A DNA stretch of 30,485 nucleotides from IMG/VR virus record IMGVR_UViG_3300032116_000928, positions 1 to 30,485 of that record; one strand, given 5' to 3'. The notes under the pieces are model-generated. The model saw nothing but the letters and a program-made list of their open reading frames with translations. It was not told the DNA's origin and did no database searches. A program made the position numbers and the translations under genes. Each line of letters starts with the position of its first letter. Position 1 is the stretch's first letter. This document shows positions 3,014-25,547 of this stretch, in pieces. The stretch comes from a virus.

Positions 3014-4306
3014 CTATGCGAATGCATATTTCCCGAAATTCTTTTTTAATTCGTAGAATGCCCTCATCATTATTGCGTCTGCAAAGTCAGGAGAAAGGCC
3101 GTGCCTCTTTTTCAAATCTTCTTTATTTGTCACTCTCAATTTCCCATCACTATCCATCTTTTCACGTCTTATCATCTCCAGTTCTTTGACAATGGTGTCT
3201 TTATGCGTTGATTCAAATGTTATGAGGTTGTTGGTAATCAATTCGCCAAGCTTGAAATAGCAATCACTTTTGAGATTCATATAATTATCTCGCACTGCTT
3301 TTGATCCATTAAGAAATCCTTTGCATTTAAGATAATCAACTGCACCACCACCAATGCCATCCTCATCGCATAGTACATTGGATAACTTTATTCCGTGACT
3401 TTTCACCAACTGGTTAATGGTATCAACTACCTCGTTAATTGGTTTGTGTTTCAATACCACAAATGTTTCAGCGTGTAGACCATTCCACACAACTATCACA
3501 GTTCTATCATCTCCCATACGTGCAATATCCGCAGTTATGAATTTATCACTTGATGAATTTGCAGGTGTGCGGAAACATCTTAACAAGTCATCGTATTCAT
3601 AAAGTCTATCTTTCGTTTCATCATAATCCCAATCACCTTCCAAAAGTCTTTTGCGGTCTACTTCAGGCAGTAATAAAAGAGATTCAAGATACACTGGAGA
3701 TACGTGGGGATTGTCAGTTGGTAAAGCTTGGATAAATTCCCTATCTGAACGAATTAACCCACTACGTTTAGCATCAAAGAATTCACGATATAACCATCCT
3801 TTGTGAGGATTGCAAGTGAGCAGTCCTTTGGGTTTGTCATTTATTAGCTTGTATCTCACACGTGAGGCCAAGATATTAACGCATTTTTCAGAAACTTCAC
3901 CTGCCTCGTCTACAAAGTAATCAGTTAACTCAATTGACCCGAACCTTTGAAACTCGGGATCCGATGGAGTATCAGCCAAGTCCATTAGTATCGTTTGACT
4001 TCCATTGAACCAAGTTATTACGTGGTCTTGTCCGTTGTAATTGTAGTGTTTACCTGCGATAAGATTGTGATGAGCGCACAATTCAAAGAATGTTTGCATC
4101 GTTGATAGGCGCAACTTCTTTAATTCAGCACGGCCAATGAGGCCTCGGGTACCTGGGTATTTTAACCTCCTTTTTATTTGCCAATCGCATCCGAGGAATG
4201 ACTTACCGCCTGATGCAGCTCCTCCATATAAGACTTGACGAATATCGCAATTTTTGGAGAGCGCATCAAGTGCCTGCAATTGCTTTGCGTTGTATTCAAT
4301 TTTCAT
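3014..4306 (-). CDS. terL: terminase large subunit (packaging ATPase and nuclease)
   Basis: This encodes 430 residues, normal for TerL. The ATPase domain has a Walker A-type loop GGAASGGKS (28-36), Walker B FVDEAGE (131-137) and a coupling motif LLTCNP (162-167). The RNase-H-like nuclease domain has FITADIARMGDD (Asp260), LCDEDG (Asp314/316) and SPDFADA (Asp410). It packages phage DNA into the prohead at the portal and cuts it. It overlaps the methyltransferase stop by 11 bases. Unusually, it lies in the leftward replication/modification operon, while the probable small subunit (11241-11531) and the portal are on the other strand, several kilobases away. Confidence 0.95.
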   Translation of the reverse strand: MKIEYNAKQLQALDALSKNCDIRQVLYGGAASGGKSFLGCDWQIKRRLKYPGTRGLIGRAELKKLRLSTMQTFFELCAHHNLIAGKHYNYNGQDHVITWFNGSQTILMDLADTPSDPEFQRFGSIELTDYFVDEAGEVSEKCVNILASRVRYKLINDKPKGLLTCNPHKGWLYREFFDAKRSGLIRSDREFIQALPTDNPHVSPVYLESLLLLPEVDRKRLLEGDWDYDETKDRLYEYDDLLRCFRTPANSSSDKFITADIARMGDDRTVIVVWNGLHAETFVVLKHKPINEVVDTINQLVKSHGIKLSNVLCDEDGIGGGAVDYLKCKGFLNGSKAVRDNYMNLKSDCYFKLGELITNNLITFESTHKDTIVKELEMIRREKMDSDGKLRVTNKEDLKKRHGLSPDFADAIMMRAFYELKKNFGKYAFA

Positions 4307-5324
4307 CCATCATTTGTATTACGTTAAAAATCTGATATGCAACTTGTGGAACTATCGCATTTCCATATCCTTTGATTGATTCTTGCCTCCACTTTGAAAA
4401 GGTAATTCCGTCCAGTTTGGTGGGAAGCCCATCATCTCCGCTACAAATCGGGGATTGAGTTGGGAAGTTGTCCCAGTTGGGTTTAAATGCACCGCCATTT
4501 GTCTTAATTGATAATGAAGATTCACACCTTTTTTCATTTGAATTTCCTTTCGTTGTTGATACTTGCTTGGTTCTTGCTCGGTATTCCAATCGAATGAATT
4601 TGGTGTTGGTAGCATTCCAAATTTCATCATCGTTGTTAAATCGTCTATCTTTCCATCGCGAATTCGTTGATGGCTGTTTCCGTGTCCTTTCACTCTCGGA
4701 GTTGGAAGTAATCTCGCAACATCGTTTAATTTTGCACCAAACTGAATATTTGTTGTGTCCGATGTTCTTATAAATCTCCCATTTTGCAAACTGATTTGAT
4801 CTATTCTTTTTGGACTTCCTTCGATATCTGCTACGCAAGGAGTGGGCAACAAACCAAACTCTGTCTCTTCGGTGTGGCGCACCAACGGCACAAGCTGGAA
4901 GTATAAACGGAATGACTTCATACCCTTCATTTTCCAATTCAGCGCACACTTCTTCGAAGACCAATCCCCCATTCCAATTAGTAATTCCACGAACATTCTC
5001 CCCCACAACGTATGTCGGTTGAATCTCTTGAATTGCTCGGAGCATATGCGGCCAGAGGTGTCGCTCGTCCTCTTTCCCAAGTCGCTTTCCTGCTGATGAA
5101 TATGGTTGGCAGGGGAATCCACCTGTGAGTATGTCAATTGCTCCTCTGTGAATAGTGAAATCTGTTTTTGTGATATCTTCATAACTAATTGAATTTGGAA
5201 AATGATAATGTAAAACTTGTCTTGGAAATGGCATCCATTCGCAATGAAATATATTTTCCCATCCCATCCATTCAGCAGCTAAATCAAAGCCACCAATTCC
5301 GCTGAACAAACTACCGTGCCTCAT
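4296..5324 (-). CDS. dcm: DNA (cytosine-5) methyltransferase
   Basis: This encodes 342 residues. C5-methyltransferase motifs in order are: I, LFSGIGGFDLA (6-16); IV, GGFPCQPYSSAG (68-79, catalytic Cys72); VI, ENVRG (109-113); VIII, GAPHRRDRVWFVA (148-160); X, GYGNAIVPQVAYQIF (319-333). The stretch from about 165 to 280 is where target recognition is expected. Here it is rich in Ser, Asn, Arg and Lys and looks unlike a normal compact domain, because another gene is overprinted on it. It would methylate cytosine in phage DNA to evade restriction. It starts in an ATGA overlap with the upstream gene and ends 11 bases inside terL. The target sequence cannot be read from the protein. Confidence 0.92.
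   Translation of the reverse strand: MRHGSLFSGIGGFDLAAEWMGWENIFHCEWMPFPRQVLHYHFPNSISYEDITKTDFTIHRGAIDILTGGFPCQPYSSAGKRLGKEDERHLWPHMLRAIQEIQPTYVVGENVRGITNWNGGLVFEEVCAELENEGYEVIPFILPACAVGAPHRRDRVWFVAHSLRSRYRRKSKKNRSNQFAKWEIYKNIGHNKYSVWCKIKRCCEITSNSESERTRKQPSTNSRWKDRRFNNDDEIWNATNTKFIRLEYRARTKQVSTTKGNSNEKRCESSLSIKTNGGAFKPNWDNFPTQSPICSGDDGLPTKLDGITFSKWRQESIKGYGNAIVPQVAYQIFNVIQMMDEN
4352..5182 (-). CDS. LPTP-repeat protein overprinted on the cytosine methyltransferase gene
   Basis: An uninterrupted 276-codon frame lies wholly inside the methyltransferase gene on the same strand, in the +1 frame. Its product is not random. It has a fairly even composition, three LPTP motifs (112-115, 159-162, 191-194), and a C-terminal block LNPRFVAEMMGFPPNWT (242-258). 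I recognise these blocks from phage proteins often found next to or overlapping Dcm genes, sometimes annotated as methyltransferase C-terminal or hypothetical. The Asn-Ala-Thr-Asn-Thr type segments of Dcm are the same bases as the LPTP motifs. The role is unknown; a target-recognition or partner subunit of the methyltransferase is a plausible guess. Expression is not shown. Confidence 0.6.
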   Translation of the reverse strand: MKISQKQISLFTEEQLTYSQVDSPANHIHQQESDLGKRTSDTSGRICSEQFKRFNRHTLWGRMFVELLIGMGDWSSKKCALNWKMKGMKSFRLYFQLVPLVRHTEETEFGLLPTPCVADIEGSPKRIDQISLQNGRFIRTSDTTNIQFGAKLNDVARLLPTPRVKGHGNSHQRIRDGKIDDLTTMMKFGMLPTPNSFDWNTEQEPSKYQQRKEIQMKKGVNLHYQLRQMAVHLNPTGTTSQLNPRFVAEMMGFPPNWTELPFQSGGKNQSKDMEMR

Positions 5325-8814: not shown

Positions 8815-8844
8815 CAAAGATATAAATAAATTTTGATTTGTCAA
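8815..8844 (-). promoter_or_regulatory. strong Bacteroidota-type promoter of the leftward operon
   Basis: On the minus strand TTG (8844-8842) is followed after exactly 19 bases by TATCTTTG (8822-8815). This is the full Bacteroidota consensus (TTG at -33, TAnnTTTG at -7). Transcription would start about four bases downstream of TATCTTTG, leaving a leader of roughly 25 A-rich bases before the ATG at 8786. Confidence 0.85.
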
Positions 8845-8967: not shown

Positions 8968-9339
8968 ATGAAGCCACGTGCGAAAAAACCATTCGCTGGA
9001 GAGGCAGGAGTTCAATTCTTAATCGTTCAGCACATCAAAATAATGTATCCAAACGCACTTTATTGCGCTTCAGCAGGGGGAATGTTCACGAGTATGAAAC
9101 AAGCGATTAAGATGAAGGCAACTGGATACGTGAAAGGATTTCCCGACCTTCAAATATGCGAACCCAATGGCAAATATTTTGGCCTCTTTATTGAAGTCAA
9201 GACGGAGAAAGGAGTTGTTAGTAAGGAACAGAAGGAATGGATCAAAGAACTGAACAAAAGGGGTTATTATGCTACTTATGTAAAAGGTTTTGATGAGGCC
9301 ATTAAAGTAATTGATGAATATTTCCAAGGCACAATATGA
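8968..9339 (+). CDS. VRR-NUC domain nuclease
   Basis: From the ATG at 8968 this encodes 123 residues; a GTG at 8944 would add eight. The core, ASAGGM ... MKATGYVKGFPDLQI ... FIEVKTEKGVVSKEQKEWI, is the VRR-NUC (PD-(D/E)xK-like) pattern: the Asp of GFPDL and the EVK of FIEVK are the expected catalytic residues. Such stand-alone domains occur in many phages and are thought to act as structure-specific endonucleases. It is the first rightward gene, divergent from the leftward operon; the sigma factor gene starts inside its 3' end. Confidence 0.85.
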   Translation: MKPRAKKPFAGEAGVQFLIVQHIKIMYPNALYCASAGGMFTSMKQAIKMKATGYVKGFPDLQICEPNGKYFGLFIEVKTEKGVVSKEQKEWIKELNKRGYYATYVKGFDEAIKVIDEYFQGTI

Positions 9340-9796
9340 GCAGCATAGAAGGTTAGCAATCAACCTTTGTGGTGGCAATGTCTATGAGGCAGATGACTTG
9401 CTTCACGATACGTTACTGTGCATCTTTGAGAACAAATCAACCATCAAGAATTCAGAACACTACATAAACCACGCGCTCAAGATAGCACATTGGTCTAATC
9501 GCAGTCATTATCACAACACAATCAGAAAGTTCAACCAAATGTCGGATGAACCAACTGAATCACAACTCCGAGATTTTGAAAGTGTGGAGGTGTGGTTAGG
9601 TGACCGTATCACCAATGAGCAGTTAGACATATTGATTTCACGTTTGCCGATGTTGGAACGTGAGGTATTTTATCTATATGCCTTAAACGATTTCAGTTAT
9701 CAGACATTGAGTGATGAAACTGGAATCCCAAAGAAGGCACTCTATAACTTTGTTAAGTACGCTAAAAACGAAATTCGAAAAGCAATAGTCATATGA
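9314..9796 (+). CDS. small sigma-70-family (ECF-like) RNA polymerase sigma factor
   Basis: From the ATG at 9314 this encodes 160 residues. Region 2-like sequence near the N-terminus (EADDLLHDTLLCIFE) and region 4-like sequence at the C-terminus (LPMLEREVFYLYALNDFSYQ, then TLSDETGIPKKALYNFVKYA) match short sigma factors. Region 4 contains a helix-turn-helix that would recognise -35-type elements. It probably directs host RNA polymerase to phage late promoters, which may explain promoter-like motifs lacking the host -33 element (10514, 25131). It overlaps the nuclease gene by 26 bases and the next gene by four. Confidence 0.8.
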   Translation: MNISKAQYEQHRRLAINLCGGNVYEADDLLHDTLLCIFENKSTIKNSEHYINHALKIAHWSNRSHYHNTIRKFNQMSDEPTESQLRDFESVEVWLGDRITNEQLDILISRLPMLEREVFYLYALNDFSYQTLSDETGIPKKALYNFVKYAKNEIRKAIVI

Positions 9797-10290
9797 TCAA
9801 TAAGATTATCCAAATGGCCAATGAACGGATGCACATATGCATTGAGTGTCCGGTATACAATTCCACAACTCGCACGTGTGGGATGCCATTGAACAAGTTA
9901 AACCCATTCGCACAACCAGTCACCTTGGATGGAGTGACCTTCAAACCTTGTGGGTGTTTTTTAGACCTTAAAACAAAGATGAGTTTTGCCGATTGTCCTG
10001 CCGGTAAGTGGCCCAAGGTAGTTGATGCTGAACTTGTAGAACAAGCGAAGGCACTTGTTGAGGAGGTAAAGCGCACCAATCAATTAAGTGATGGCAATCG
10101 AAAGCTATTAGCGCAATTGGACAGTATTATGAAAGGTACTAACACAAAGGTGAGCAGTTGTGTGCCTTGCGTCAATAAAATCATTAGCGACCTTAATAAC
10201 CAACTAAAAAGGGAAGAGGTGCTACTTACTGAAGAACAACCCCCACAAAAGAAAAAACGTGGAAGAAAATCAAGAAAATCAGAGTTATGA
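9793..10290 (+). CDS. cysteine-rich (zinc-binding) phage protein
   Basis: This encodes 165 residues. The N-terminal half has CIECP, TCG, PCGCF and ADCPAGKWP, a cluster of six or seven Cys that would bind zinc. A similar pattern, ending in CP..KW, is common in Bacteroidota phage proteins near packaging genes. A second CVPC lies around residue 125, and the C-terminus is strongly basic (KKKRGRKSRKS). Nucleic-acid binding is likely. It begins in a four-base overlap with the sigma factor and ends in one with the membrane protein. Confidence 0.7.
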   Translation: MINKIIQMANERMHICIECPVYNSTTRTCGMPLNKLNPFAQPVTLDGVTFKPCGCFLDLKTKMSFADCPAGKWPKVVDAELVEQAKALVEEVKRTNQLSDGNRKLLAQLDSIMKGTNTKVSSCVPCVNKIISDLNNQLKREEVLLTEEQPPQKKKRGRKSRKSEL

Positions 10291-10484
10291 TGAGCCTGCT
10301 TCATTTTTGTTTTACGTGTTATTTACTGACCGCATTATTACTTATTGGACTGATGGCCGTGATGATCCTACGGCGAACCCTACGTTTTTCAGTTGAAAAC
10401 ATTTTGGGTATGCTATTCACCGCTTTTTGTTGGCCAGTTGTACTTGCAATGACAATAGTGGAATTGTTCAAAACTAAAGATTAA
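10287..10484 (+). CDS. small membrane protein
   Basis: This encodes 65 residues with two hydrophobic segments: about residues 8-29 (LLTALLLIGLMAVMIL) and 39-57 (ILGMLFTAFCWPVVLAMTIV), separated by RRTLRFS and ending in FKTKD. The layout fits a small two-span inner-membrane protein; superinfection exclusion or a holin-type role are both possible, but a better holin candidate exists at 28499-28906. The ATG overlaps the previous stop. Confidence 0.6.
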   Translation: MMSLLHFCFTCYLLTALLLIGLMAVMILRRTLRFSVENILGMLFTAFCWPVVLAMTIVELFKTKD

Positions 10485-10513: not shown

Positions 10514-10521
10514 TATCTTTG
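10514..10521 (+). promoter_or_regulatory. candidate promoter (-7 TATCTTTG) for the structured RNA
   Basis: TATCTTTG is a perfect TAnnTTTG box. No TTG lies at the host -33 spacing, so it may need the phage sigma factor or an activator. The expected start, about four bases downstream, falls almost exactly on the first arm of the RNA structure at 10524. Confidence 0.5.
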
Positions 10522-10523
10522 TA

Positions 10524-10600
10524 GTGTTCAGTCTGCATTGTGATTTTCCCCTTTGATTTAATGCGCTGAACACGTTTAAATCATTGGGGAAGTTTTTTTT
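10524..10600 (+). ncRNA. candidate structured leader or small RNA with terminator/antiterminator folds
   Basis: Fold A pairs GTGTTCAG (10524-10531) with CTGAACAC (10566-10573) and GCATT (10535-10539) with AATGC (10560-10564). Fold B pairs TTCCCC (10546-10551) and TGATTTAA (10554-10561) with TTAAATCA (10576-10583) and GGGGAA (10586-10591), followed by eight T. The arms interleave, so the two folds compete. This is the topology of a transcription attenuator, or a free RNA of about 76 bases. Confidence 0.5.
10546..10600 (+). terminator. intrinsic terminator in front of the late gene cluster
   Basis: A stem of eight plus six base pairs is split by a 2x2 internal mismatch, has a 14-base loop, and is followed by G and eight T residues. 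It stands upstream of the structural genes, so it must be read through, bypassed, or used to end a short RNA. Confidence 0.75.
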
Positions 10601-10848
10601 ATGAATAAATACAAATTACTCTCCATTGCCAAAGGGAGATGCAAAAGGCAAACTTGCGATACATCAACGCTTGGTTCAGGTAAATTCGCTATTCGCGAAA
10701 TTGTTTGTTTTTATTGGGGGGGCTTTTTCTTTTCTTTCTTTTTCTTTTTTACCTTTTTTTCTTTTTCTTTCTTTTCTTTTGAGTTATAATTATTACTTTA
10801 TTTATATATATAACTATTAATAATTAAGTCTTATCTTAAATAATTTAG

Positions 10849-10856
10849 TAAATTTG
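10849..10856 (+). promoter_or_regulatory. candidate promoter (-7 TAAATTTG) directly before the late cluster
   Basis: TAAATTTG fits TAnnTTTG and lies four bases before the ATG at 10861, implying a nearly leaderless transcript. The upstream sequence is AT-rich without a TTG at -33. A similar layout occurs at 25131-25138. Confidence 0.35.
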
Positions 10857-10860
10857 AAAT

Positions 10861-11217
10861 ATGATAATTCTACCTGCTCAAATCGAATCAATCAAAAGTC
10901 GCAAGGACAAAACTACAGCTATTGTGATTGGCACTAATGAATTAACTCCAGCTACTGCAGGTCAACTATTCAGCCTTCAAAATTCATTCGTCTATTGTGC
11001 GATAAAAGAGGAGGAATTCGCTACTAATGAAAGGGACATCTTAAATGACTTAAAAGCGGACTTTGAGATAGAGAGAAAGAGTAATGGTCAAAGGTTGAGA
11101 AATATTCTCTATAAGCTTTGGGAAGCGGATAAGGAAGGCTTCCTTACCTTTACCAGATACTATGACCACAAGATGGAGCAGTTAATAAATCACTTCAAAA
11201 GTAAATTAGAATTGTAA
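10861..11217 (+). CDS. conserved Bacteroidota-phage hypothetical protein
   Basis: This encodes 118 residues: a beta-rich N-terminus (MIILPAQIESIKSRKDKTTA), then LTPATAGQLFSLQNSFVYCA and a helical, charged C-terminus (QRLRNILYKLWEADKEG, HKMEQLINHFKSK). I recognise this arrangement from Bacteroidota phage genomes, where it commonly lies close to packaging genes, but its function is unknown. It is the first gene of the late rightward cluster. Confidence 0.75.
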   Translation: MIILPAQIESIKSRKDKTTAIVIGTNELTPATAGQLFSLQNSFVYCAIKEEEFATNERDILNDLKADFEIERKSNGQRLRNILYKLWEADKEGFLTFTRYYDHKMEQLINHFKSKLEL

Positions 11218-25130: not shown

Positions 25131-25138
25131 TATCTTTG
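25131..25138 (+). promoter_or_regulatory. candidate promoter (-7 TATCTTTG)
   Basis: A perfect TAnnTTTG box eight bases before the ATG at 25146, starting one base after the tail-tube stop. No TTG at -33. The same box occurs at 10514-10521. Confidence 0.45.
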
Positions 25139-25145
25139 TAAGTAA

Positions 25146-25547
25146 ATGAATTACTTGCAAACCAATACCGCCTCGCAAACCCTCCTTCTCTCTTTAGAGG
25201 AGGGGGTTTTGCTTTTATCTTCGTTCACGGATTACTTGTTAGTGATTCAGAACGAAACAACATTAGAAATATTTGCGGTTATTCCAACGCTAATAAGCAC
25301 CAATGAGAGAATCACAACGTTGTCAATTAGTACAAATGCAGATGATGCGGTTGGCAGTATTCTCATCGTTGATGGAGGCCGTTACAACTACATTATTTAT
25401 GGTCAAAATTCAGATAGCAACTTGGATCCTGCTTCTGCTGATGTGGTTGGAGAGATTAAGCGTGGGTATATTGAATTCACTACGCTAACGCAGTACTTTG
25501 ACCAACCTTCACTAACCATCCCAAACGATATAGAATACAATGGCTAA
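25146..25547 (+). CDS. conserved structural-region protein
   Basis: This encodes 133 residues, beta-rich, with YLLVIQNETTLEIFAVIPTL and later GGRYNYIIYGQNSDSNLDPA. The Y.Y.IY.Q.S..NLDP pattern is typical of a small protein family in Bacteroidota phages, located near tail tube and portal. It is probably a head-tail connector or tail component; no functional motif is visible. Codons about 11-21 contain a terminator-like hairpin. It overlaps the portal gene by eight bases. Confidence 0.65.
   Translation: MNYLQTNTASQTLLLSLEEGVLLLSSFTDYLLVIQNETTLEIFAVIPTLISTNERITTLSISTNADDAVGSILIVDGGRYNYIIYGQNSDSNLDPASADVVGEIKRGYIEFTTLTQYFDQPSLTIPNDIEYNG
25177..25216 (+). terminator. terminator-like hairpin inside the coding start
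   Basis: AAACCC and TCCTT (25177-25187) pair with AAGGA/GAGGA and GGGTTT (25197-25209) with a small G bulge, followed by TTTTGCTTTT. It begins 39 bases after the -7-like TATCTTTG at 25131-25138 and so could act as an attenuator. It overlaps coding sequence, so it may be fortuitous. Confidence 0.4.

Follow-up and report, generated by a model that had tools for sequence, protein, structure and literature searches.

The RNA biology of Bacteroidota phages is, to our knowledge, little described. Among known systems, transcription attenuators and the leaders of terminator–antiterminator riboswitches resemble the element considered here in that their terminator shares a strand with a competing helix formed earlier, and the phage lambda pR′–tR′ region, known for lambda 6S RNA and Q antitermination, resembles it in having a promoter, a short terminated RNA and read-through into later functions. 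H-type pseudoknot RNAs, such as the preQ1 riboswitch and the ToxI antitoxin RNAs, have their arms in the same order (5′A–5′B–3′A–3′B). GOLLD and ROOL, which are large ornate phage RNAs of unknown function found beside or containing tRNAs, are comparable as structured phage RNAs associated with tRNAs (PMC12286853).

Here we describe a promoter-driven leader of about 74 nt which, from its sequence and that of its relatives, we judge with a probability of roughly 55% to be a bistable transcription attenuator, or a leaky terminator, of a modular noncoding-RNA cassette. It lies in a linear viral record of 30,485 bases and 37% GC (IMGVR_UViG_3300032116_000928), the whole of which is referred to as the window, at a position after the first rightward genes and before the structural genes. 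The terminase encoded in the window has 44% identity to that of Flavobacterium phage 11b and the portal is similar to Nonlabens phage portals; together with the TAnnTTTG boxes described below, these likenesses indicate a Bacteroidota host, and phages of this group probably infect Flavobacterium-like bacteria. Elsewhere in the window, a Mom-like DNA modification protein and a C5 cytosine methylase adjoin the terminase gene (2136–2825 and 4296–5324, minus strand), and a strong-looking promoter, TTGACA-16-TATCTTTG, stands ahead of the leftward genes at 8844–8815 on the minus strand.

The element is built from two interleaved helices, S1 and S2, and a shared middle strand (M) that has a possible partner on either side (P5 and P3). 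Its features and those of its surroundings are as follows.

10514–10521, + strand: sigma-A type −7 box TATCTTTG, matching the Bacteroidota consensus TAnnTTTG; predicted +1 at G10526
10526–10531, + strand: 5′ arm of S1 (GTTCAG), the predicted first transcribed bases; pairs with 10566–10571
10535–10539, + strand: P5 (GCATT), 5′ partner of the shared middle strand; S1 extension
10546–10561, + strand: 5′ arm of S2, the terminator (TTCCCCTTTGATTTAA); 98.7% of cells paired, double changes in 4 of 11 pairs
10560–10565, + strand: M (AATGCG), the shared middle strand, with P5 (S1 extension) or P3 (S2 extension) as partner
10566–10571, + strand: 3′ arm of S1 (CTGAAC), which is the loop of the extended S2 hairpin
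10574–10577, + strand: P3 (GTTT), 3′ partner of the shared middle strand; S2 extension
10576–10591, + strand: 3′ arm of S2 (TTAAATCATTGGGGAA)
10593–10600, + strand: U tract of eight T; homology to the nearest relatives ends there or within a few bases
10601–10728, + strand: module C, the cargo of this phage, with a pseudoknot RNA at 10620–10651 and hairpins at 10656–10670 and 10684–10699
10849–10856, + strand: box TAAATTTG of the next gene (10861–11217), with its predicted +1 at the A of that gene's ATG at 10861

Two folds can be drawn. Fold A pairs 10524–10531 with 10566–10573 (8 bp) and 10535–10539 with 10560–10564 (5 bp), and fold B pairs 10546–10551 with 10586–10591 and 10554–10561 with 10576–10583, giving 14 bp interrupted by a conserved UU/UU internal loop. 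Taken alone, they have predicted energies of −18.3 kcal/mol (z −6.1) and −20.0 kcal/mol (z −5.1) respectively, and none of 200 shuffles was as stable in either case. Terminator hairpins of −12 kcal/mol or lower that combine a U tract with a loop complementary over at least 7 nt to upstream RNA number about 0.3 per dinucleotide-shuffled window, both strands counted; the window itself has one, at −19.1 kcal/mol with 8 nt of complementarity.

Homologs were found in about 70 uncultured phage contigs (cited below by L number) through tblastn-anchored and pattern searches of viral contigs, a single pattern yielding 67 contigs and a covariance model or a looser pattern a few more. One match to a pattern for S2 only, L229, was rejected as chance, since this contig is GC-rich, unrelated and lacks a U tract. 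In the closest relatives homology covers the upstream genes to about 10598–10608 and often resumes just before the next gene. Among 35 distinct aligned copies, 98.3% of the cells in S1 and S2 are paired, and 6 of 18 pairs, drawn from both helices, show double compensatory changes; shuffle controls equalled neither the pairing nor the covariation (0/500 each), and slid registers were only 34–54% paired. S1, a helix of seven pairs, is paired in 97.6% of cells and carries a C–G to G–C double change in 13 of the 35 copies (GTTCAG/CTGAAC against GTTGAG/CTCAAC), a second pair also covaries, and the pair at 10525 is the one most often broken (6/35). The inner S2 pair likewise occurs as C–G or G–C, and all four combinations with the S1 variants are found. 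G–U pairs in the 35 copies fall in the + sense, as expected for an RNA of the + strand. Consensus folding returns S2 alone because nested models cannot accommodate both helices, and the covariance model hence describes S2 only.

The middle strand distinguishes this element from a simple hairpin. Its sequence varies (19 sequence types), and it is nevertheless complementary to both its 5′ and its 3′ neighbour: the duplex with P5 has a mean energy of −3.6 against −1.9 when permuted (0 of 20,000 permutations) and that with P3 a mean of −1.9 against −0.8 (1 of 20,000), figures which overstate independence as the aligned copies, and the 19 types with them, are related and recombining. Since this two-sided complementarity is maintained, the two alternative helix extensions are conserved, and a plain terminator has no need of it. 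Two conserved folds thus share a strand, one of them a terminator, as in an attenuator, with exclusivity confined to the extensions 10535–10539/10560–10564 and 10560–10565/10574–10577. The arm order, 5′A–5′B–3′A–3′B, is that of an H-type pseudoknot, and both interleaved helices covary, with double changes in each; the 6-bp core of S1 and the outer stem of S2 can in principle coexist. A rough estimate of the pseudoknot energy (S1 core plus S2 plus a penalty of 9.6) gives a mean of −22.1 kcal/mol, comparable to the −20.5 kcal/mol of the best nested fold. Predicted folds of the nascent RNA contain S1 in 35 of 35 copies until the last 2–4 nt of S2 emerge and S2 in 35 of 35 thereafter, which in the model is the geometry of a terminator that displaces an earlier helix at the last moment. 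S2 is predicted to be the stabler in every copy (means −20.1 and −14.3 kcal/mol), so that at equilibrium, unless a ligand or protein intervenes, the terminator should prevail.

The box at 10514–10521 is conserved with the helices. Among the 35 aligned copies its sole variable base is the fourth (C, A or G), position 3 being T in all, and a few additional copies have CATCTTTG or CATATTTG instead. In Flavobacterium psychrophilum the −7 box spans −12 to −5 (PMC9723704), and the same spacing here predicts a start at G10526. This start fits the pair at 10525 being the weak point of S1, and across the 35 copies the pairing is conserved from the predicted +1 onwards; positions 10524 and 10525, which form the outermost pairs of fold A, thus probably lie outside the transcript. 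Applied to the box at 10849–10856, the same spacing puts the next gene's +1 at the A of the start codon. TAnnTTTG boxes also stand 12–15 nt 5′ of start codons (window 10849–10861 and 25131–25146), an arrangement that predicts phage mRNAs that are leaderless or almost so. Upstream of the box at 10514–10521 no clear −33 element can be seen, and a scan with the sigma-70 consensus was uninformative here (14 found, 18.5 expected).

The initial annotation had described, at coordinates that we find to be correct throughout (box, fold A, fold B and eight T), a promoter box at the first arm, a terminator and two competing folds. All of these stand: the box is conserved in relatives, the S2 hairpin is followed by its eight T, and both helices covary while the middle strand is complementary both ways. 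The compensatory changes in relatives that it had proposed to look for are present, at the 98.3% pairing and 6 of 18 doubly changed pairs given above. Its statement that the folds exclude each other applies to the helix extensions and not to the helix cores, given their pseudoknot arm order.

The U tract is separated from the next protein gene by a variable slot, whose cargo begins 0–6 nt after the U tract and which in relatives holds modules A, B or C, tRNA or tRNA-like sequences, the structured-looking modules E and F, or small ORFs. In 61 distinct arrangements no TAnnTTTG box, the box type by which these were judged, stands between the U tract and the cargo, and the box of the next gene lies 11–28 nt upstream in most of those arrangements in which that gene can be seen. 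Since no such box precedes the cargo, and since tRNAs must be transcribed, the cargo RNAs should be products of read-through, in which case the leader cannot be an absolute terminator; by the same measure in the same arrangements, the downstream sequence depends on read-through as that of an attenuator does. The element had been supposed to front the whole late cluster, which is not supported, as the next gene has its own TAAATTTG box and the slot follows the U tract. The idea of an attenuator stands if its target is taken to be the RNA slot and not the late cluster.

Leader and cargo occur in different combinations, one leader being found with several cargoes and one cargo with several leaders. 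The GTTGAGATGATAAAG-type leader precedes module C in L008, L063, L068 and L102 and module A in L118, and the GTTCAGGAGTTACAAG-type leader occurs with module A, module B and tRNA-A. Module A is an unclassified structured phage RNA of about 270 nt (L003:2837–3105, L100:3293–3566 and others) that shows covariation, with double changes in 13 pairs; it stands directly 3′ of the leader or follows tRNA-like sequences or another module, and has a weak sub-threshold match to Betaproteobacteria-1 RNA. Module B, of about 330 nt (L037:3049–3374, L012:692–1029), is conserved and unclassified and, judging by its alignment alone, is probably structured. Module C is paired in 99.2% of cells, with double changes in 6 pairs (0/500 shuffles). 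Over window positions 10601–10789 its covarying pseudoknot is accompanied by an always open frame (MNKYKLLSIAKGRCKRQTCDTSTLGSGKF...), the ATG of which, at 10601, comes right after the U tract and which is open in the homologs compared. Predicted tRNAs in the slot include a tRNA-Leu called by ARAGORN in L042 and an Rfam tRNA (36.9 bits) in L100, and tRNA-like sequences (GTCAGGTGGCGGAATGG...GGTTCGAATCCTGTCCTGACT) with odd anticodon regions and without an ARAGORN call follow the U tract directly in L094, L120, L132 and L196. A pairing, seen by eye, of GGTTCAGG in cargo modules with the CUGAAC loop was dropped, as it does not track the C/G change in S1. Further downstream, window positions 10724–10783 form a pyrimidine-rich, near-perfect mirror repeat of 60 bases, of the H-DNA or triplex type; in L008 its arms agree at 27 of 28 positions, and even the shortened form in L121 keeps the mirror symmetry (20/22).

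Three relatives, L121, L123 and L133, have no such leader; at the corresponding site a CATCTTTG box is followed by an unrelated sequence. In these a GTGGAC close to the 5′ end complements a GTCCAC in the loop of a terminator hairpin, after which come TTTGTTTTT and then the cargo. That the same topology occurs in an unrelated element argues that what counts is the pairing between 5′ end and terminator loop.

In the reading that we prefer, that of an attenuator or leaky terminator, transcription would start at about G10526 and S1 with its extension would fold first. As the last bases of the 3′ arm of S2 emerge, S2 would invade via the shared middle strand and could then terminate transcription at the U tract, the S1 core possibly being retained in a pseudoknot in which the 5′ end of the transcript is paired with the terminator loop. 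Polymerases that escape would continue into the downstream structured RNA (here module C, elsewhere A, B or tRNAs), giving two products, a terminated, compact RNA of 74 nt and a longer RNA with cargo, and read-through would be regulated and not merely partial. A discrete RNA of about 76 bases, which the initial annotation had offered as its other possibility, is supported as one likely product, with a predicted length of about 74–76 nt. Against an attenuator, simple partial termination would also explain the read-through, and neither a ligand-binding domain nor a leader peptide nor a regulator gene was identified.

The main rival, which we consider rather unlikely, is a stand-alone phage small RNA with leaky termination, in which a pseudoknot caps the terminator, S1 protects both ends by joining the 5′ end to the terminator loop and read-through into the cargo is incidental leakage, the RNA acting in trans on host or phage targets or on proteins. 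Such an RNA would account for an element that has its own promoter box and terminator and is exchanged as a unit, independently of cargo and flanks, as well as for the pseudoknot energy estimate and the recurrence of the topology in L121, L123 and L133. It leaves unexplained, however, both the kept complementarity of the middle strand's 5′ partner and the frequent RNA cargo devoid of a promoter box, and there is no obvious conserved unpaired seed region. Less likely again, and in our view improbable, is a lambda-type arrangement, in which a strong late promoter would give a short terminated RNA until a phage antiterminator acts, be it a Q-like protein or an RNA element like put of HK022. The location past the first rightward genes and ahead of the structural genes and the closeness of promoter box and terminator are as this would have them, but the conserved double-sided complementarity is intrinsic to the RNA and in most arrangements a separate box precedes the next protein gene. 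Strongly disfavoured is a mere intrinsic terminator of the upstream genes (9311–10484) with a chance box and chance loop complementarity: S2 does lie about 60 nt past the stop codon of the ORF at 10287–10484, but S1 and the alternative extensions covary, the box is conserved and an alternative element of the same topology exists. Least probable of all is a DNA-level site, a folded single-strand recombination, packaging or replication site marking the cassette boundary, for although homology ends at or near the end of the element, where cargo is swapped, the + sense G–U pairs, U tract, promoter register and RNA-gene cargo all indicate RNA, and no recombinase gene was noticed at the site.

A broader extension of the preferred reading, which we put forward tentatively and as short of an even chance, is that these phages possess a noncoding-RNA cassette system, with a promoter-plus-switch leader that sets the dose of swapped modules (A, B, C, E, F and tRNAs) during infection and with cargo that acts on the host. 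Its parallel would be the anti-defence hotspot at which other phages swap protein genes, the cargo being, for instance, decoys or inhibitors of RNA-targeting defences. If the preferred reading is right, the leader represents a compact RNA switch class in Bacteroidota phages, one that heads a slot where phages exchange whole structured RNAs instead of genes, and a 74-nt leader with 100–340 nt of cargo would offer a tractable handle on the role of large phage RNAs. Because one strand is complementary on both sides, point mutants would allow a direct test of the switch.

Searches with Rfam at the gathering score, covering the window and ten loci, found no family for the leader or for modules A, B and C, in agreement with the earlier remark that no known riboswitch class was recognisable; with E-values there were sub-threshold hits only (sau-5949, bantam and Betaproteobacteria-1 RNA), taken as chance or unresolved. 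Cultured-phage DNA (about 50,000 records) contained no match to the region, to module A or to module B. Among 84,980 genomes of bacteria and archaea, a pattern search gave no convincing cellular match for the leader, its sole yield being two Photobacterium matches provisionally judged to be chance. The covariance models of GOLLD and ROOL had no match in the ten loci, cargo included.

Set against the systems with which we began, the leader is only 74 nt long and modules A and B about 270–340 nt, unlike the large GOLLD and ROOL RNAs. Compared with the preQ1 riboswitch and ToxI, its helices are longer, its second stem is a terminator, it has no Rfam match and no ligand or toxin partner is seen; type III antitoxin RNAs are recognised by tandem pseudoknot repeats beside a ToxN-like gene, and the leader is single-copy in the window. 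Unlike lambda pR′–tR′, the present system has an RNA that is conserved and bistable or pseudoknotted, and the protein gene that follows usually has a box to itself. In contrast to attenuators and riboswitch leaders, there is no leader peptide, known ligand domain or constant protein-coding operon as target, and the downstream genes are interchangeable RNAs. The mechanism is a variant of attenuation or of bistable leaders, and the unusual part is the interchangeable structured-RNA cargo.
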